Shown piece after piece: positions 3,563 to 9,589 of a DNA stretch of 64,000 bases. Within the stretch, counting starts at the first letter, position 1, and each line of letters begins with the position of its first letter. Source of the stretch: an uncultured bacterium (GTDB lineage: Bacteria; Bacteroidota; Rhodothermia; Rhodothermales; UBA10348). The translations under genes and the position numbers were made by a program. The stretch is from positions 441,323-505,322 of the forward strand of contig CALSQR010000002.1 of NCBI GenBank assembly GCA_943788505.1, in the 5' to 3' direction. The notes below the pieces were generated by a model. It ran no database searches. It was not told where the DNA came from and saw only the letters and a list, made by a program, of their open reading frames with translations.

Positions 3563-4219
3563 TCATTTACGACGGGATTGCTTGTAGTTCATGATTTCAA
3601 TCATTCGTCGCTGCATCGTAGCGATTCCGCCTACGTCGTATCCATGCTTGAGTGCCGACCGGACGATGATATTCCTGAGAATCATGTCAGTAGGGGAAAG
3701 AGAGCCCAGCGGACGCCGGAGTCGATCTGCAATCGGATCGAGGAGGCGAGAAACAAGTTGCCATCGCAGCAAGATGAATCCGACCAGCCCCACACTTAAT
3801 CCAATCATGTCCCCAGAGGAGGCGAGAAAACTCAATACGAGCACAAACACTAAGCCCTGAAAAACGGGATGATTCAATTTGCGGACGAGAGAGACAAGGG
3901 ATGGAAATACCGCGGAAGGTGCGATTACGCTCAGACCGAGATACAAAACAAACGACGAAAGGCCAGCCATCAGGCCCCCAAGAGTGGGGAGCATGGTGGC
4001 TAGGATTAGAAGAGAAAGAGTGACAGGAAGCCGGTACCACTCAGCAGCTGATTGAAGCAGAAATTCAAGCCCGTATCGATCAAGTACTTCAGGCGCAAAA
4101 GCCCGAATATCTTGTTCAGAGGTGTGAAACCACATTCCGTCCGCCGTGAAAAGGGCGCCGCCAACTTCGACACAGAATGGGACATCATCCTGCTTACGGT
4201 CAGTCATCTCGTCTGACAT
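3563..4219 (-). CDS. Small polytopic membrane protein of unknown function
   Basis: Not recognised. I start it at MSDEMTDRKQ (4219, giving 218 residues; ATG 4207 is equally possible) because sequence further upstream in this frame is antisense-like and lies inside the preceding gene. After a soluble N-terminus of about 60 residues there are roughly four hydrophobic stretches (LPVTLSLLILATML, SSFVLYLGLSVIAP, VFQGLVFVLVLSFLA, GLSVGLVGFILLRW), then a basic C-terminal region. It overlaps the 3' end of the YbbR-like gene by 20 bp, so translation is probably coupled and it belongs to the microcompartment-shell operon. The function may relate to the YbbR protein, but that is inference from position only. 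Confidence 0.7.
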   Translation of the reverse strand: MSDEMTDRKQDDVPFCVEVGGALFTADGMWFHTSEQDIRAFAPEVLDRYGLEFLLQSAAEWYRLPVTLSLLILATMLPTLGGLMAGLSSFVLYLGLSVIAPSAVFPSLVSLVRKLNHPVFQGLVFVLVLSFLASSGDMIGLSVGLVGFILLRWQLVSRLLDPIADRLRRPLGSLSPTDMILRNIIVRSALKHGYDVGGIATMQRRMIEIMNYKQSRRK

Positions 4220-5180
4220 CGTAGTAGCGAAGGCTTTCCGGCTCAAATCGTGGACCGCGTACATCCAGCGAATCTGGAAGGTGCAACATTGGGAATACAA
4301 GACCCTGTGTATCCCGCTCAATGTCCGAATAAGGAACGAAGGCATAGAATTCTTCTGCTTCCATAGCCTTGTCATATTGCGACAGAGGCACCTGATAGAT
4401 CACATCTACGACGGCAGGCGAAAACGTAACCCGAACACCTGGTGGCAGACCAACAGCTCGCACGGCAACTTGCCTGGTCGCACCAGTAAAGGCTTGAACG
4501 TCTGCTTTAACGATAACCTCGGACACGTCTGTCAAAACAAGAGAACCCAGCGTATCAGAAAGCGCGATAGCTGCGTTTAGAGAATCTCGCATCTCTCCCA
4601 AATGCCGCCGCGCTGTCGGCCAAGATCTGAGATTTTGGATAATCGATCGTGCTCCTGAAACGGTTATGGAATCAGGTACTGATTTAATGGTACCGATCAT
4701 GCGATACCCTGAAGCAAACTGCATGGTGATGCGAGGCTCGACGGGTATACGTCGGCTCACCCGGTCTTCGACTGACATGTCGACCAGCCTGGGTGTAACG
4801 GCTTGGATACTTACACTTTTGACTATTTCCGGAGCACTGAGTCCAAGATCAACCACATCCTGAGACGCGTCAATCGGAACGGATGGGGGATTGTAATAAA
4901 GCCGAAGTATCTGAATACCCTCCCCCTCGAGCTGAACCCTCACCGAGCTAGGAGGCATTTGGGCCAGTGCCTGATCGTCAGGCAGATTGCGTACTTCCGT
5001 CGGAAACTCGATCACCTGCGTGTAGGTCTCTTGCATCGAGAAAGCGAACCAAAGCACACAGGACGCCAGGATACACAGCGTGATCACCCATCCACGGTTA
5101 CGGGGCGTGTCATACTCAGCCTCAGCTCTCCTTCCCGGATGGAAAAGGGTCTGTAGACGGGCAATGATGGACATGCTCAT
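4200..5180 (-). CDS. YbbR-domain (CdaR-like) single-pass membrane protein
   Basis: A 326-residue protein with one membrane helix near residues 31-48 (WVITLCILASCVLWFAF), followed by an extracytoplasmic beta-rich region. This is the architecture of YbbR-domain proteins, and the repeated signatures (VRNLPDD, VPIDASQ, IPVEPRI, YRMIGTIKSVPDSITVSG) fit that fold. In Firmicutes the YbbR protein CdaR regulates the diadenylate cyclase CdaA and sits next to it. No cyclase gene is visible here, so a c-di-AMP role is only a possibility. It lies 27 bp downstream of the second shell gene and overlaps the next membrane-protein gene, indicating one transcript. Confidence 0.78.
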   Translation of the reverse strand: MSMSIIARLQTLFHPGRRAEAEYDTPRNRGWVITLCILASCVLWFAFSMQETYTQVIEFPTEVRNLPDDQALAQMPPSSVRVQLEGEGIQILRLYYNPPSVPIDASQDVVDLGLSAPEIVKSVSIQAVTPRLVDMSVEDRVSRRIPVEPRITMQFASGYRMIGTIKSVPDSITVSGARSIIQNLRSWPTARRHLGEMRDSLNAAIALSDTLGSLVLTDVSEVIVKADVQAFTGATRQVAVRAVGLPPGVRVTFSPAVVDVIYQVPLSQYDKAMEAEEFYAFVPYSDIERDTQGLVFPMLHLPDSLDVRGPRFEPESLRYYDVRRDD

Positions 5181-5207: not shown

Positions 5208-5678
5208 CTAGCGCTTACGCAGAGCATCGAGCAACTGTTGCCGGTTAGCCCGCGCTATTTCGCGACCCTTGATCGGCAAATCTGCTTGTTCTCTGGCATA
5301 GGCCCTCAATTCTCTGACCGTCATATCCTCGATGGACGCCCCAAGAACAGATTTCTTGCCCGTTGAACGAGTCACTGACGAAGCCGGTGGGACATCAGAT
5401 AAAGCCTGCATCTGGGCAACCTCGGCAGCCGGTCGTGCAATAACATGACTAGAAAACACGACTCCAACCCGCTCGGCCGCTGCTCTGCCAGCGTCAACCG
5501 ACGCCTGAACGGCTGCCGTCTCGCCCACAACCTGAACGGTCATGAGCGCTGCTTCTGTTTTTTCAATGCCCAGCAGACGCACATTTGATGCTTTCAGCAT
5601 GGCGTCGGCCGCCTCAATGGCTGCGACAAGACCACGCGTCTCGATCAAACCGAGTGCTTCGTGTTGTTCGTCAGCCAT
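5208..5678 (-). CDS. Bacterial microcompartment (BMC-H) shell protein with C-terminal extension
   Basis: Residues 5-85 are a BMC domain: [20 protein letters not shown], then VRLLGIEKTEAALMTV and VDAGRAAAERVG. Such proteins form hexameric tiles of protein-shelled organelles. The loop that normally lines the central pore is Lys40-Thr-Glu-Ala-Ala instead of the usual Gly-rich sequence, so the pore should differ from that of the neighbouring shell protein. A flexible linker (86-112) leads to a basic helical tail (115-156, MTVRELRAYA and LPIKGREIARANRQQLLDAL) that resembles a Rho-N or SAP-type small nucleic-acid-binding module; this resemblance is my inference. It lies 52 bp downstream of the other shell gene. 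Confidence 0.93.
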   Translation of the reverse strand: MADEQHEALGLIETRGLVAAIEAADAMLKASNVRLLGIEKTEAALMTVQVVGETAAVQASVDAGRAAAERVGVVFSSHVIARPAAEVAQMQALSDVPPASSVTRSTGKKSVLGASIEDMTVRELRAYAREQADLPIKGREIARANRQQLLDALRKR

Positions 5679-5730: not shown

Positions 5731-6024
5731 TCAGTCTGCGCTACCAGAGGGAAGGATTCCTTCTACGTCCGAGTGAGGGCGAGGAATCACGTGTACGGAG
5801 ACGAGCTCTCCAACACGTTCGGCTGCAGCAGCACCGGCATCCGTAGCTGCTTTAACCGCACCTACGTCACCGCGGACCATAACGGTCACGTATCCACCTC
5901 CGATTTTTTCTTTTCCCATAAGCTGGACCTTAGCGGCCTTAACCATGGCGTCGGCTGCTTCAATGGCTCCGACGAGACCGCGGGTCTCGACCATGCCTAG
6001 TGCAATTCCGTAATCGTCTGACAT
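5731..6024 (-). CDS. Canonical BMC-H microcompartment shell protein
   Basis: A 97-residue single-BMC-domain protein of the PduA/CcmK type: [20 protein letters not shown] near the N-terminus, [17 protein letters not shown] (28-44), and [20 protein letters not shown]. Lys40 and Gly42-Gly43-Gly44 correspond to the pore loop of metabolosome and carboxysome shell hexamers, which passes small polar metabolites. It is the first gene of the apparent operon, read away from wecB across a 212-bp divergent intergenic region that should hold its promoter. No BMC pentamer, trimer or cargo-enzyme gene is visible in the window. Assignment as a shell protein is very secure; the substrate of any compartment is unknown. 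Confidence 0.97.
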
Positions 6025-6236
6025 CGTGCGTCACAAGTTAGTATGAAGTGGTATTCGTCCGAAATGGCTACAAAACCTCCCTGCCTGGGGAGCATGTCGC
6101 TCCACTTGGGAGCTCGCCATCGAATAAGCCTGAATATAGAGGCGTCCCTGACGTTTGTCAAAGATTCGCGACGTCTTCCGTTCGGTATTGGTATACTCTC
6201 AACCGTTCGTTCCAATGGGATCACTCAGATTAAACT

Positions 6237-7352: not shown

Positions 7353-8533
7353 TACATGCTGATCAGATCTACAGCTGTGGCATTCCAATTCCATGTTGTT
7401 GATACCGCCAAATGGCCCGATTCGCCCATTCGCTCGCGTACTTCTTTCGACGCCAACATGCTGGCAAGCTGGTTGACTAGATCATCAGGACGGCCAGAAC
7501 TGTACACCTTGCCAGATTCTGAGGCATTCACGATGCGCTCCAGCGGCTTACAGTTAGACACCAGTACGGGAAGCCGCATGTGCATGTAGTGGAACAGCTT
7601 ATGCGGAATAGTGTGATCGGTGTGCTGGGTTTTCAAATGAGGAATAAGCCCGATGTCAGCCTTGGCCATGAACCCTTTAACAGCATCTTGCGCCTGCCAA
7701 CCGGCAAACCAGACTGAGTCACCGAGATGCAGACTAGTGCAAAGCTCTTCTAACTCCCCCCTAACGGCACCATCTCCAACGAATACCAGTTTAGCTTCTG
7801 GCCATCGAGCTAGAATCGCTGGCATTGCCCGAATAGGATCTTCAAGACCTCTATGCCGATCCATCCCACCCGTGTAGATCAAACTGGGAAAGCCTTCCGG
7901 AAAAGTTGATGGAGGATCTGAAGGCCAGGAATCGAATTCGTCTAGATGGATGGTGTTGGGGACCACACATACATGATCGTCAGGCAGTCCGCGCTCACGT
8001 AGTCTTTCGGCCATTTCATCAATGACGACCACTAACCGGTCCACTTCCCGGCTCCACCTCAATTCCAACTCATTCCATCGATCCAGATTGACTACCCACT
8101 TCCCAGGAACGGTTGTGCTCCATTTGTAATGACGCAGGGCTTCAACCCAGTTTTCATGCATGTCTCCTACGACGGGCACTTTCAATCGCTTTCCTGACCG
8201 AAGTGCTGCTCCAAATAGGTACAAGTCGTGGGCATGCAGCGCGTTGATCGGAAACCTGCGATGGATGCGTTTTAGCTGCCTTAGTACATACCATTCGATA
8301 AATGGTATCGATCCAGACAGCCCTCGCATTTTGTTTCGGACCTGGGCCGGGATGCGGGGTCGTACCACCCTGACGCCTTCGATCATCTCTTCTGCGGGCC
8401 TCGAATCTGGGCCGATGGACAACACCGTGACCTCGAAGCCCGCTTCGACCAACGAGCGAGCTTCATTTTCAACTCGTAGATCCGGTGGATACCCCTGATC
8501 TAGGATCATGCAGATATGAAAACGATCTGTCAT
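7310..8533 (-). CDS. Family 4 (GT-B) glycosyltransferase
   Basis: A 407-residue cytoplasmic or membrane-associated sugar transferase. The N-terminal domain begins ICMILDQGYPPDLRVENEA and shows FEVTVLS and LHAHDLYLFGAA. The C-terminal nucleotide-sugar domain has LIYTGGMDRHRGLEDPIRAM, LVFVGDGAVRGELEEL, a typical ADIGLIPH segment and PLERIVNASESGKVY near the donor-binding glutamates. It starts within the ATGA overlap with the frameshifted epimerase and is the last gene of a six-gene minus-strand operon. Its 3' end runs 43 bp into wecB on the other strand. The sugar and acceptor cannot be read from the sequence. Confidence 0.9.
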   Translation of the reverse strand: MTDRFHICMILDQGYPPDLRVENEARSLVEAGFEVTVLSIGPDSRPAEEMIEGVRVVRPRIPAQVRNKMRGLSGSIPFIEWYVLRQLKRIHRRFPINALHAHDLYLFGAALRSGKRLKVPVVGDMHENWVEALRHYKWSTTVPGKWVVNLDRWNELELRWSREVDRLVVVIDEMAERLRERGLPDDHVCVVPNTIHLDEFDSWPSDPPSTFPEGFPSLIYTGGMDRHRGLEDPIRAMPAILARWPEAKLVFVGDGAVRGELEELCTSLHLGDSVWFAGWQAQDAVKGFMAKADIGLIPHLKTQHTDHTIPHKLFHYMHMRLPVLVSNCKPLERIVNASESGKVYSSGRPDDLVNQLASMLASKEVRERMGESGHLAVSTTWNWNATAVDLISMYQELAGPGESQSAR

Positions 8534-9589
8534 GCTTCGCTGAGCGTGGTTGCTATCAGGGTCGATGCCGTTCCGTCGGGCGCCTCACCAAAGGACGGCG
8601 GTGCACCGTCCGGATCCCGGTCAACAGCAGCCAAAATGGCATCCTGGTCTGCACCCACGATTTCGTTCCATCCACCCTGGGTGGTTTCGGTCCACTCGGT
8701 TTCATCGCGCAGCGTAACACAGGGACGGCCAAGCCAAACGGCTTCTTTTTGAAGACCTCCAGAGTCCGTCAGCACACGATCTGCAGCGGCTAGTAAGGTC
8801 AGCATAGACAGGTACGAAACGGGTTCTATAATGCGCACATTCGAGGGAACGTCTAGCCCCTTAAGCTTTGCCAGCGTGCGAGGATGAAGCGGGAGTAGGA
8901 TGGGCTTGTCCAAACGTCCAAAGGCGGAAAAAAATAGCTGACAGACGCGCTGGATCGTCCGTATTCTCTGCTCGATGGACGGTGGCGAGATGATAGGAGC
9001 CAGTTTTCAGGTCCGTCAATGAATCGAGCGGTGCATGAGATGCTGCCCTCTCCGCAAAAAACCGAGTTGCGTCCAACATCACATCGCCGCTCATAATCAC
9101 GCCACGCGTCATGCCTTCTCTTCTGAGGTGAGAAACCGCTGTTGGAGTGGGGCAGAACAACCATTCGGACAGTCGATCTGTCACGATACGATTTATTTCT
9201 TCCGGCATACGCCAATTGAATGAACGCAATCCAGCTTCGACATGAGCCAACGGGATGTTTAACTTAGAGGCTACCATCCCAGCGGCCAGAGTGGAATTTG
9301 TATCTCCATAGACCAGAACGGCGTCAGGACGGGGTCCAGACTTGAGAATCGACTCCAGACCCGTCATCATGGCGGCCGTCTGCTGCCCGTGGGAGCCCGA
9401 ACCAACTCCCAGATTGTGAGCAGGAGCTGGAATGCCCAGTTCTCCAAAAAACACATCACTCATGTTGGCATCGTAATGCTGACCCGTGTGCACGAGCGAC
9501 TCTGACAAGCCTTCTTCTCGGAGGGCATGGCTCACAACGGCTGCTTTCACAAATTGTGGGCGAGCACCCACTACAGTCACGATGTTCAT
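8530..9589 (-). pseudogene. Second UDP-GlcNAc 2-epimerase, interrupted by a single-base frameshift
   Basis: The N-terminal part reads GARPQFVK, HTGQHYDANMSDVFF, GDTNSTLA, HVEAGLRSFNW and EEINRIVTDRL. It leaves the family sequence just after ENTDDPARLSAIF. The C-terminal part (LPLHPRTLAKLKGL, TDSGGLQKEAVW) resumes in the next frame. The switch sits at a run of seven A on the plus strand (8928-8934, seven T in the mRNA). Removing one base restores about 352 continuous residues close to its paralogue at 6237. It overlaps both neighbours as ATGA. It could be a real mutation, a sequencing or assembly indel in the homopolymer, or a slippage site; the rest of the gene shows no decay. Confidence 0.88.

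Follow-up and report, generated by a model that had tools for sequence, protein, structure and literature searches.

A bacterial microcompartment (BMC) shell protein of an uncultured Rhodothermales bacterium carries a conserved C-terminal module that resembles the small helical Rho_N and SAP domains. The protein, an extended BMC-H of 156 amino acids (5208..5678, minus strand), is encoded beside a canonical BMC-H in a 64,000-nucleotide stretch of DNA, the window (positions 441,323 to 505,322 of contig CALSQR010000002.1, assembly GCA_943788505.1). From the sequence and from predicted structures, we propose with a probability of about 40% that the extended protein is a specialised shell tile whose cytosol-facing tails bind nucleic acid and tether the organelle to the nucleoid. 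The compartment that carries the tile is best explained as a scattered-gene, FRAG-like metabolosome of the Rhodothermales. The conserved tail is more interesting than the pore that an earlier note on this DNA had flagged.

The open reading frame has an ATG start, and one Pfam BMC domain above the curated cut-off identifies its product as a BMC-H. The match covers residues 8-83 (5430..5657, minus strand; E = 9.1e-25, 86.9 bits against a cut-off of 24.5) and profile positions 1-75 of 75, in non-permuted order. This match bears out the shell-protein identity proposed in the earlier note; the altered pore loop and the separate C-terminal module that it pointed out are likewise confirmed, as described below. 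The lysine of the inter-hexamer edge is present (DAMLKAS at the edge position) and the PRPH motif is degenerate, reading ARPA. A linker of 31 residues with a net charge of +1 (approximately residues 84-114; 5337..5429, minus strand) has low confidence in the full-length model (pLDDT below 50 over residues 86-103 and 107-110), and is followed by the module at residues 115-156 (5211..5336, minus strand), which is delimited by profile matches, family conservation and predicted fold.

Our survey of the tail's distribution covers one phylum, and extended proteins were selected by their likeness to the complete window protein and so also to its tail. The Pfam BMC cut-off was passed by 49 of 244 genomes of the class, all 49 in the order of the window. 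Loci were fetched from 47 of the other 48 (G229, whose second BMC gene is split at contig ends, was left out), and the BMC-H pair was found in 47/47; G173 has two different pairs (L083, L084), giving 48 extended genes besides that of the window. G173 is listed at 4% contamination, so one of its two pairs may be foreign. Among genomes of other families of the phylum, 79/394 had a BMC match at E ≤ 0.001, 65 of them outside the window's class, and from 35 of these 65 we read candidate pair loci, hand-picked from the listed matches, along with five loci encoding double BMC domains. The pair was present in 33 of the 35.

The module is present in 82/82 extended BMC-H genes, including all 48 fetched from the order, one of which (L080) is truncated at a contig end, and it lies 0-8 residues from the C-terminus. 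A tail profile built from the 47 complete order-level proteins recovered it in 33/33 extended proteins of other families, which were outside the training set (E = 1.5e-12 to 4.7e-21). The order-level and other-family tail sets match each other in a profile-profile comparison (E = 1.8e-26) and share seven invariant columns (V, L, R, R, G, R, L), the three Arg being residues 125, 129 and 139 of the window protein. Most tails are slightly basic, with a net charge of at least +1 in 68/82. No canonical and extended pair lacking the module was found among the loci read; two of the 35 other-family loci (L147, L149) have different BMC genes without it, and it is absent from the five double-domain loci. 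When 13 genomes, including the window's own, were searched with the tail profile, the strong matches were the extended BMC-H proteins of ten; other rows were 0.00385 or weaker, except in G216, where two fragments at contig ends matched (3.0e-7 and 5.5e-6), one being the truncated gene L080. The BMC-less relatives G168 and G237 had no tail-profile match at E ≤ 1. Two weak matches among open reading frames of the other-family loci, one in L130 (0.69) and one in a 210-residue frame near the different-type BMC locus (L147:6251-6883, plus strand; 0.0081), are unrelated, and the latter is possibly a chance match.

The linker is far more variable, ranging from 13 to 273 residues in the 82 orthologues. 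Its net charge is -12 or lower in 13/82, all from other families, and in three of these families' loci (L141, L142, L143) it reaches 228-273 residues with net charges of -35 to -87.

Rho_N and SAP are the commonest Pfam matches of the tails. The whole window protein matches Rho_N at E = 0.035, and its last 67 residues match Rho_N at 0.0065 and SAP at 0.051. Among 30 of the 49 order-level tails (a set that includes the window's), 22 matched SAP and 21 matched Rho_N at E ≤ 1 (best 1.1e-5), and 6 matched FANC_SAP; in other families, Rho_N was matched by 16/33 tails (best 7.4e-6) and SAP by 6/33. Shuffled tails gave a Rho_N or SAP match in 0/30, which together with the matches indicates that the module is more than chance. 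The tail is the best-predicted part of the full-length model, and in isolation AlphaFold2, run on three sequences, predicts it with a mean pLDDT of 86.5 and helices at residues 10-19, 27-32 and 35-43. A Foldseek search with this model returned 11 rows at E ≤ 10; five were Rho, and these had the best query-normalised TM-scores (0.57-0.66). In VIA-align, a second look at the same Foldseek list, all six rows shown were Rho or FAN1 (Z 3.4-4.8): the top row was Rho residues 2-41 (Z 4.8, rmsd 2.9, 40 aligned) and the next FAN1 residues 462-503 (Z 3.9, rmsd 2.0, 39 aligned), which we take to be the SAP domain of FAN1.

The Rho_N/SAP-type helical tail suggested in the earlier note is thus supported by family conservation, by Pfam matches with a shuffled control and by a confidently predicted small fold, at modest scores. 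Two other readings of the tail fall away. A disordered tail finds no support in either the full-length or the isolated-tail model. Nor is the tail an encapsulation peptide only, as it is predicted as a three-helix module of about 40 residues on a shell protein, versus an amphipathic helix of 15-20 residues on cargo. An EutK-like C-terminal domain, which the earlier note had listed for comparison, is not what the tail matches: the NCBIfam EutK model (NF012010) aligns over the BMC part only (3-86 of 166) and scores 75.9 bits against a cut-off of 218.

How such a tail would work depends on its position on the shell. The extended protein would form facet hexamers, perhaps mixed with the canonical tile, and its C-termini would exit on the concave, cytosol-facing side. 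BMC-H termini have been described as lying naturally on the external side (PMC6787980), which would place six tails per hexamer in the cytosol, and a nucleic-acid-binding fold there fits nucleoid tethering. Each hexamer could present as many as six flexibly linked tails, which would bind nucleic acid, most likely nucleoid DNA and non-specifically. Tethered in this way, the organelle would be distributed and passed on along with the chromosome, as polyhydroxybutyrate (PHB) granules are by PhaM, PhaF and PhaH, each a single two-ended protein (PMC13052382). With its changed loop, the pore would be constricted or shut, and the extended protein would serve as a docking tile and not as a main metabolite channel.

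Several observations weigh against nucleoid tethering. The window tail scores below the Pfam cut-offs (Rho_N 16.8 against 24.9 bits, SAP 13.7 against 23.9), and we therefore say that it resembles these families and do not file it as a member; with modest scores from profiles and models, the relation is one of likeness. With the tail model, Foldseek gave no match at E ≤ 0.001; ranked by E-value, CRP came first, with a poor superposition (TM 0.32), and 6 of the 11 rows were not Rho. All VIA-align Z scores are below 5, a range in which a common helical arrangement can suffice, and a fold shared with Rho or FAN1 is in any case no proof of nucleic-acid binding. Tail profiles searched against PDB sequences gave best matches of only 0.2 and 0.46, to unrelated proteins, and the net charge of 14/82 tails is zero or negative. 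In the full-length model the BMC part is poorly predicted (mean pLDDT 63, pTM 0.34, from a three-sequence alignment and a single chain), so that hexamer and pore geometry are inferred. The face orientation of native BMCs is also disputed or ambiguous (PMC6109187).

The pore loop differs between the two shell proteins of the pair. Where the canonical sister (5731-6024) reads KIGGG, the extended protein has KTEAA at residues 40-44 (5547..5561, minus strand), a position that we take to be pore-lining as established for PduA. The earlier note inferred from this a closed or acidic pore with six Glu side chains per hexamer. The Glu is present in the window protein, but aligning the domains of 82 extended and 82 canonical proteins shows that it is not conserved: the position is Val in 28 of the extended proteins, Asp in 24 and Glu in 3, with Asp or Glu in 27/82, and the residue after it is Ala in 48 of them, Pro in 23 and Gly in 9. 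The GGG loop, by comparison, is absent from 81/82 extended proteins, L127 being the single one that retains it, and is kept in 82/82 canonical sisters. The conserved change is therefore the loss of the glycine loop, with the acidic ring a local feature; a generally altered, GGG-less pore stands, and an acidic pore is ruled out as the key feature.

The window's own genome (2.75 Mb, completeness 96.87%) contains two BMC domains only at E ≤ 0.001, those of the BMC-H pair (C2:446752-447325). It also has three BMC-P genes, two adjacent (C2:790559-791070) and one elsewhere (C2:80394-80651), so the shell set comprises two BMC-H and three BMC-P at three genomic places. In the class, BMC-P was found in 52/244 genomes, with three copies in 45 of the 52. 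The two named relatives are Rhodothermaceae/Rhodothermales metagenome-assembled genomes. Both genes of the pair lie on one strand in 81/81 fetched pairs. On a tree, the canonical BMC domains fall cleanly apart from the extended ones (support 0.991, with 0 misplaced), a pattern compatible with a single old duplication.

A likely cargo of the shell, judged from its sequence, is an acylating aldehyde dehydrogenase encoded by an orphan gene, with a C-terminus that resembles an encapsulation peptide (C1:1374353-1376056; L206:9854-11560), one of seven aldehyde dehydrogenase family matches in the genome. It belongs to the acylating acetaldehyde type (540 bits for TIGR02518, under the cut-off of 620) and carries at its C-terminus an extension of some 120 residues, which ends in LSEAEIDRIASRFRKP. 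In the class, 48 genomes have close relatives (E < 1e-190), and these include 46 of the 49 BMC-H genomes (Fisher p = 1.6e-43, with no correction for kinship). BMC-H genomes without a close relative are G148, G158 and G216; G157 and G234 have a close relative and no BMC-H, and five further genomes of the class have distant relatives only (E = 4.3e-86 to 2.2e-66). Absences in the class are loose, as mostly five candidates were scored per genome. Within one genus, G145 has all parts (BMC-H, BMC-P and aldehyde dehydrogenase) and G144 has none. In other families the enzyme was found in 33/33 pair-bearing genomes (E ≤ 1.9e-146) and in 0/15 BMC-less relatives, for which all candidates were scored; of the genomes with different BMC loci, G426 lacks it and G343 has a match of 3.6e-43 only. 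A helix-like C-terminal pattern, defined after seeing the ends, is present in 48/50 of these aldehyde dehydrogenases versus 23/1318 control ends. A second motif with PW(M/L/I), such as KPWMEEIDARLRERAG, occurs in the extension of 15 of the 50 enzymes read, all from the window's order. The PduL phosphotransacylase (PF06130) was found in 0/244 genomes of the class, with controls matched in E. coli and Thermotoga. The co-occurring acylating aldehyde dehydrogenase and the absence of PduL point to a metabolosome core without a recognised aldehyde source, as in published FRAG BMCs (PMC8217296).

The same enzyme gives weight to a different role for the tail, that of a Rho_N/SAP-shaped adaptor that binds a protein and organises cargo or shell assembly, such as the C-terminal peptide of the aldehyde dehydrogenase, a missing signature enzyme or a cytosolic partner. 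We consider this rather unlikely, while granting that small helical modules frequently bind proteins, that the aldehyde dehydrogenase accompanies the shell set in 46/49 and 33/33 genomes, and that its conserved helix-like end (the post hoc pattern of 48/50 versus 23/1318) would suit such a contact. Cargo usually docks through its own peptide on the BMC domain of the shell, however, and the invariant columns that the two tail sets share comprise three Arg, one Gly and three hydrophobic residues. Orientation cuts both ways, with some evidence for inward concave faces in native BMCs (PMC6109187) set against the description of BMC-H termini as external (PMC6787980).

A tail serving only as a spacer or for solubility, without binding nucleic acid, would keep compartments from clumping, as reported for PduK, which prevents aggregation of PDU compartments (PMC13052382). 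The long, acidic linkers of some orthologues, with net charges down to -87, would suit this role, which we judge improbable because a spacer has no need for 40 terminal residues with positions invariant across families (33/33), and the linker of the window protein is short (31 residues, net +1). Binding of RNA, which would anchor the shell on mRNA or ribosomes so that the products of a scattered gene set assemble during translation, agrees with the best structural resemblances being to N-terminal domains of Rho, an RNA helicase, and with shell genes at three genomic places. The N-terminal helical module of Rho is not its main RNA site, however, and no RNA partner was seen, although none was sought; we regard this role as very unlikely.

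Nucleoid tethering by the shell tile, the reading that we prefer, can be set beside several known systems. FRAG-type BMCs have scattered shell genes, three BMC-P, no recognised adjacent signature enzyme and an aldehyde dehydrogenase elsewhere (Sutter et al. 2021, PMC8217296). The system described here likewise has shell genes at several places with no defined locus, and three BMC-P, the latter a match by gene count. The available part of that paper notes BMC-H proteins with C-terminal extensions; it names Ignavibacteriae and others, not Rhodothermales, and describes no Rho_N/SAP-like module. EutK also combines a BMC domain with a small helical domain, in its case a helix-turn-helix suggestive of nucleotide binding (PMC5821096), whereas the fold predicted here resembles Rho_N and FAN1, the EutK model covers the BMC part only, and the extended BMC-H is paired with a canonical one in the loci read. 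The tails share with the Rho N-terminal domain (PF07498) and SAP (PF02037) weak profile matches in many members and a similar predicted fold, and differ, on our reading of the alignment, by a longer stretch between helices (GREIARANK-like).

The proposed union of an organelle end and a C-terminal DNA-binding end in one protein recalls PhaM, PhaF and PhaH, a likeness in working and not a claim of homology. Carboxysomes are positioned on the nucleoid by McdA/McdB, a separate ParA-type ATPase with an adaptor (PMC13052382); the proposed outcome is the same, a BMC on the nucleoid, with a tether that here would be shell-built and ATP-free. That the shell itself carries the tether, an integral device for positioning and inheritance that needs no ATP and is conserved in several families of the phylum, with the acylating aldehyde dehydrogenase as the only clear cargo, is a doubtful proposition that we advance as such. 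A shell protein with an appended domain is of a known kind; the Rho_N/SAP-like tail is a new variant and not a new system. We found no description of such a BMC-H tail in the accessible portions of the literature on BMC-H extensions, FRAG, EutK, the SAP domain, Ignavibacter and nucleoid binding, and no paper joining BMCs with Rhodothermales or Rhodothermaeota. A whole-word term search of the available main text of PMC4207490 gave no occurrence.

The canonical BMC-H is the first gene of the pair (97 amino acids, KIGGG pore; 5731..6024, minus strand; Pfam BMC 103.6 bits) and lies 52 bases before the extended gene. A YbbR/CdaR-like gene (4200..5180, minus strand; Pfam YbbR E = 1.9e-7, 31.7 bits) starts 27 bases behind the extended gene, and these short gaps make the three genes look like one operon, with the YbbR/CdaR-like gene third. 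Its BLAST cluster is first behind the pair in 52/81 fetched pairs and second in 2/81, or 38/48 from the order and 16/33 from other families. A promoter-like site (TTGACA-17-TATATT, 6133..6161, minus strand, 11/12 consensus matches) lies about 110 bases before the first BMC-H gene; it is the only one in the region, which is not above shuffled sequences (mean 2.3).

Near the adjacent BMC-P pair of the same genome is cdaA, encoding diadenylate cyclase (L077:9027-9827, C2 near 789 kb), which is also close to it in 15/20 other genomes read. Together with the YbbR/CdaR-like gene beside the BMC-H pair, this hints at a c-di-AMP link, or merely at old gene order. A gene that reads as phosphopentomutase (deoB; L077:11088-12248, named from its sequence) adjoins the BMC-P pair, and a deoB-like gene lies within the same stretch as that pair in 14/20 other genomes. 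A few kb separate the third BMC-P from an apparent class I fructose-bisphosphate aldolase gene, also named by sequence (the two genes being at L078:4639-5718 and 8239-8673).

Few bacterial organelles are as poorly understood as FRAG-type BMCs. The conserved, testable module on one of two BMC-H tiles, together with a consistent orphan cargo enzyme, provides handles on the location and role of this organelle. Organelles with this tile may tether themselves to the DNA of the cell. Should the tail prove to bind DNA, it would act as an integral tether of the organelle and could be borrowed as it stands to position engineered shells on the nucleoid.
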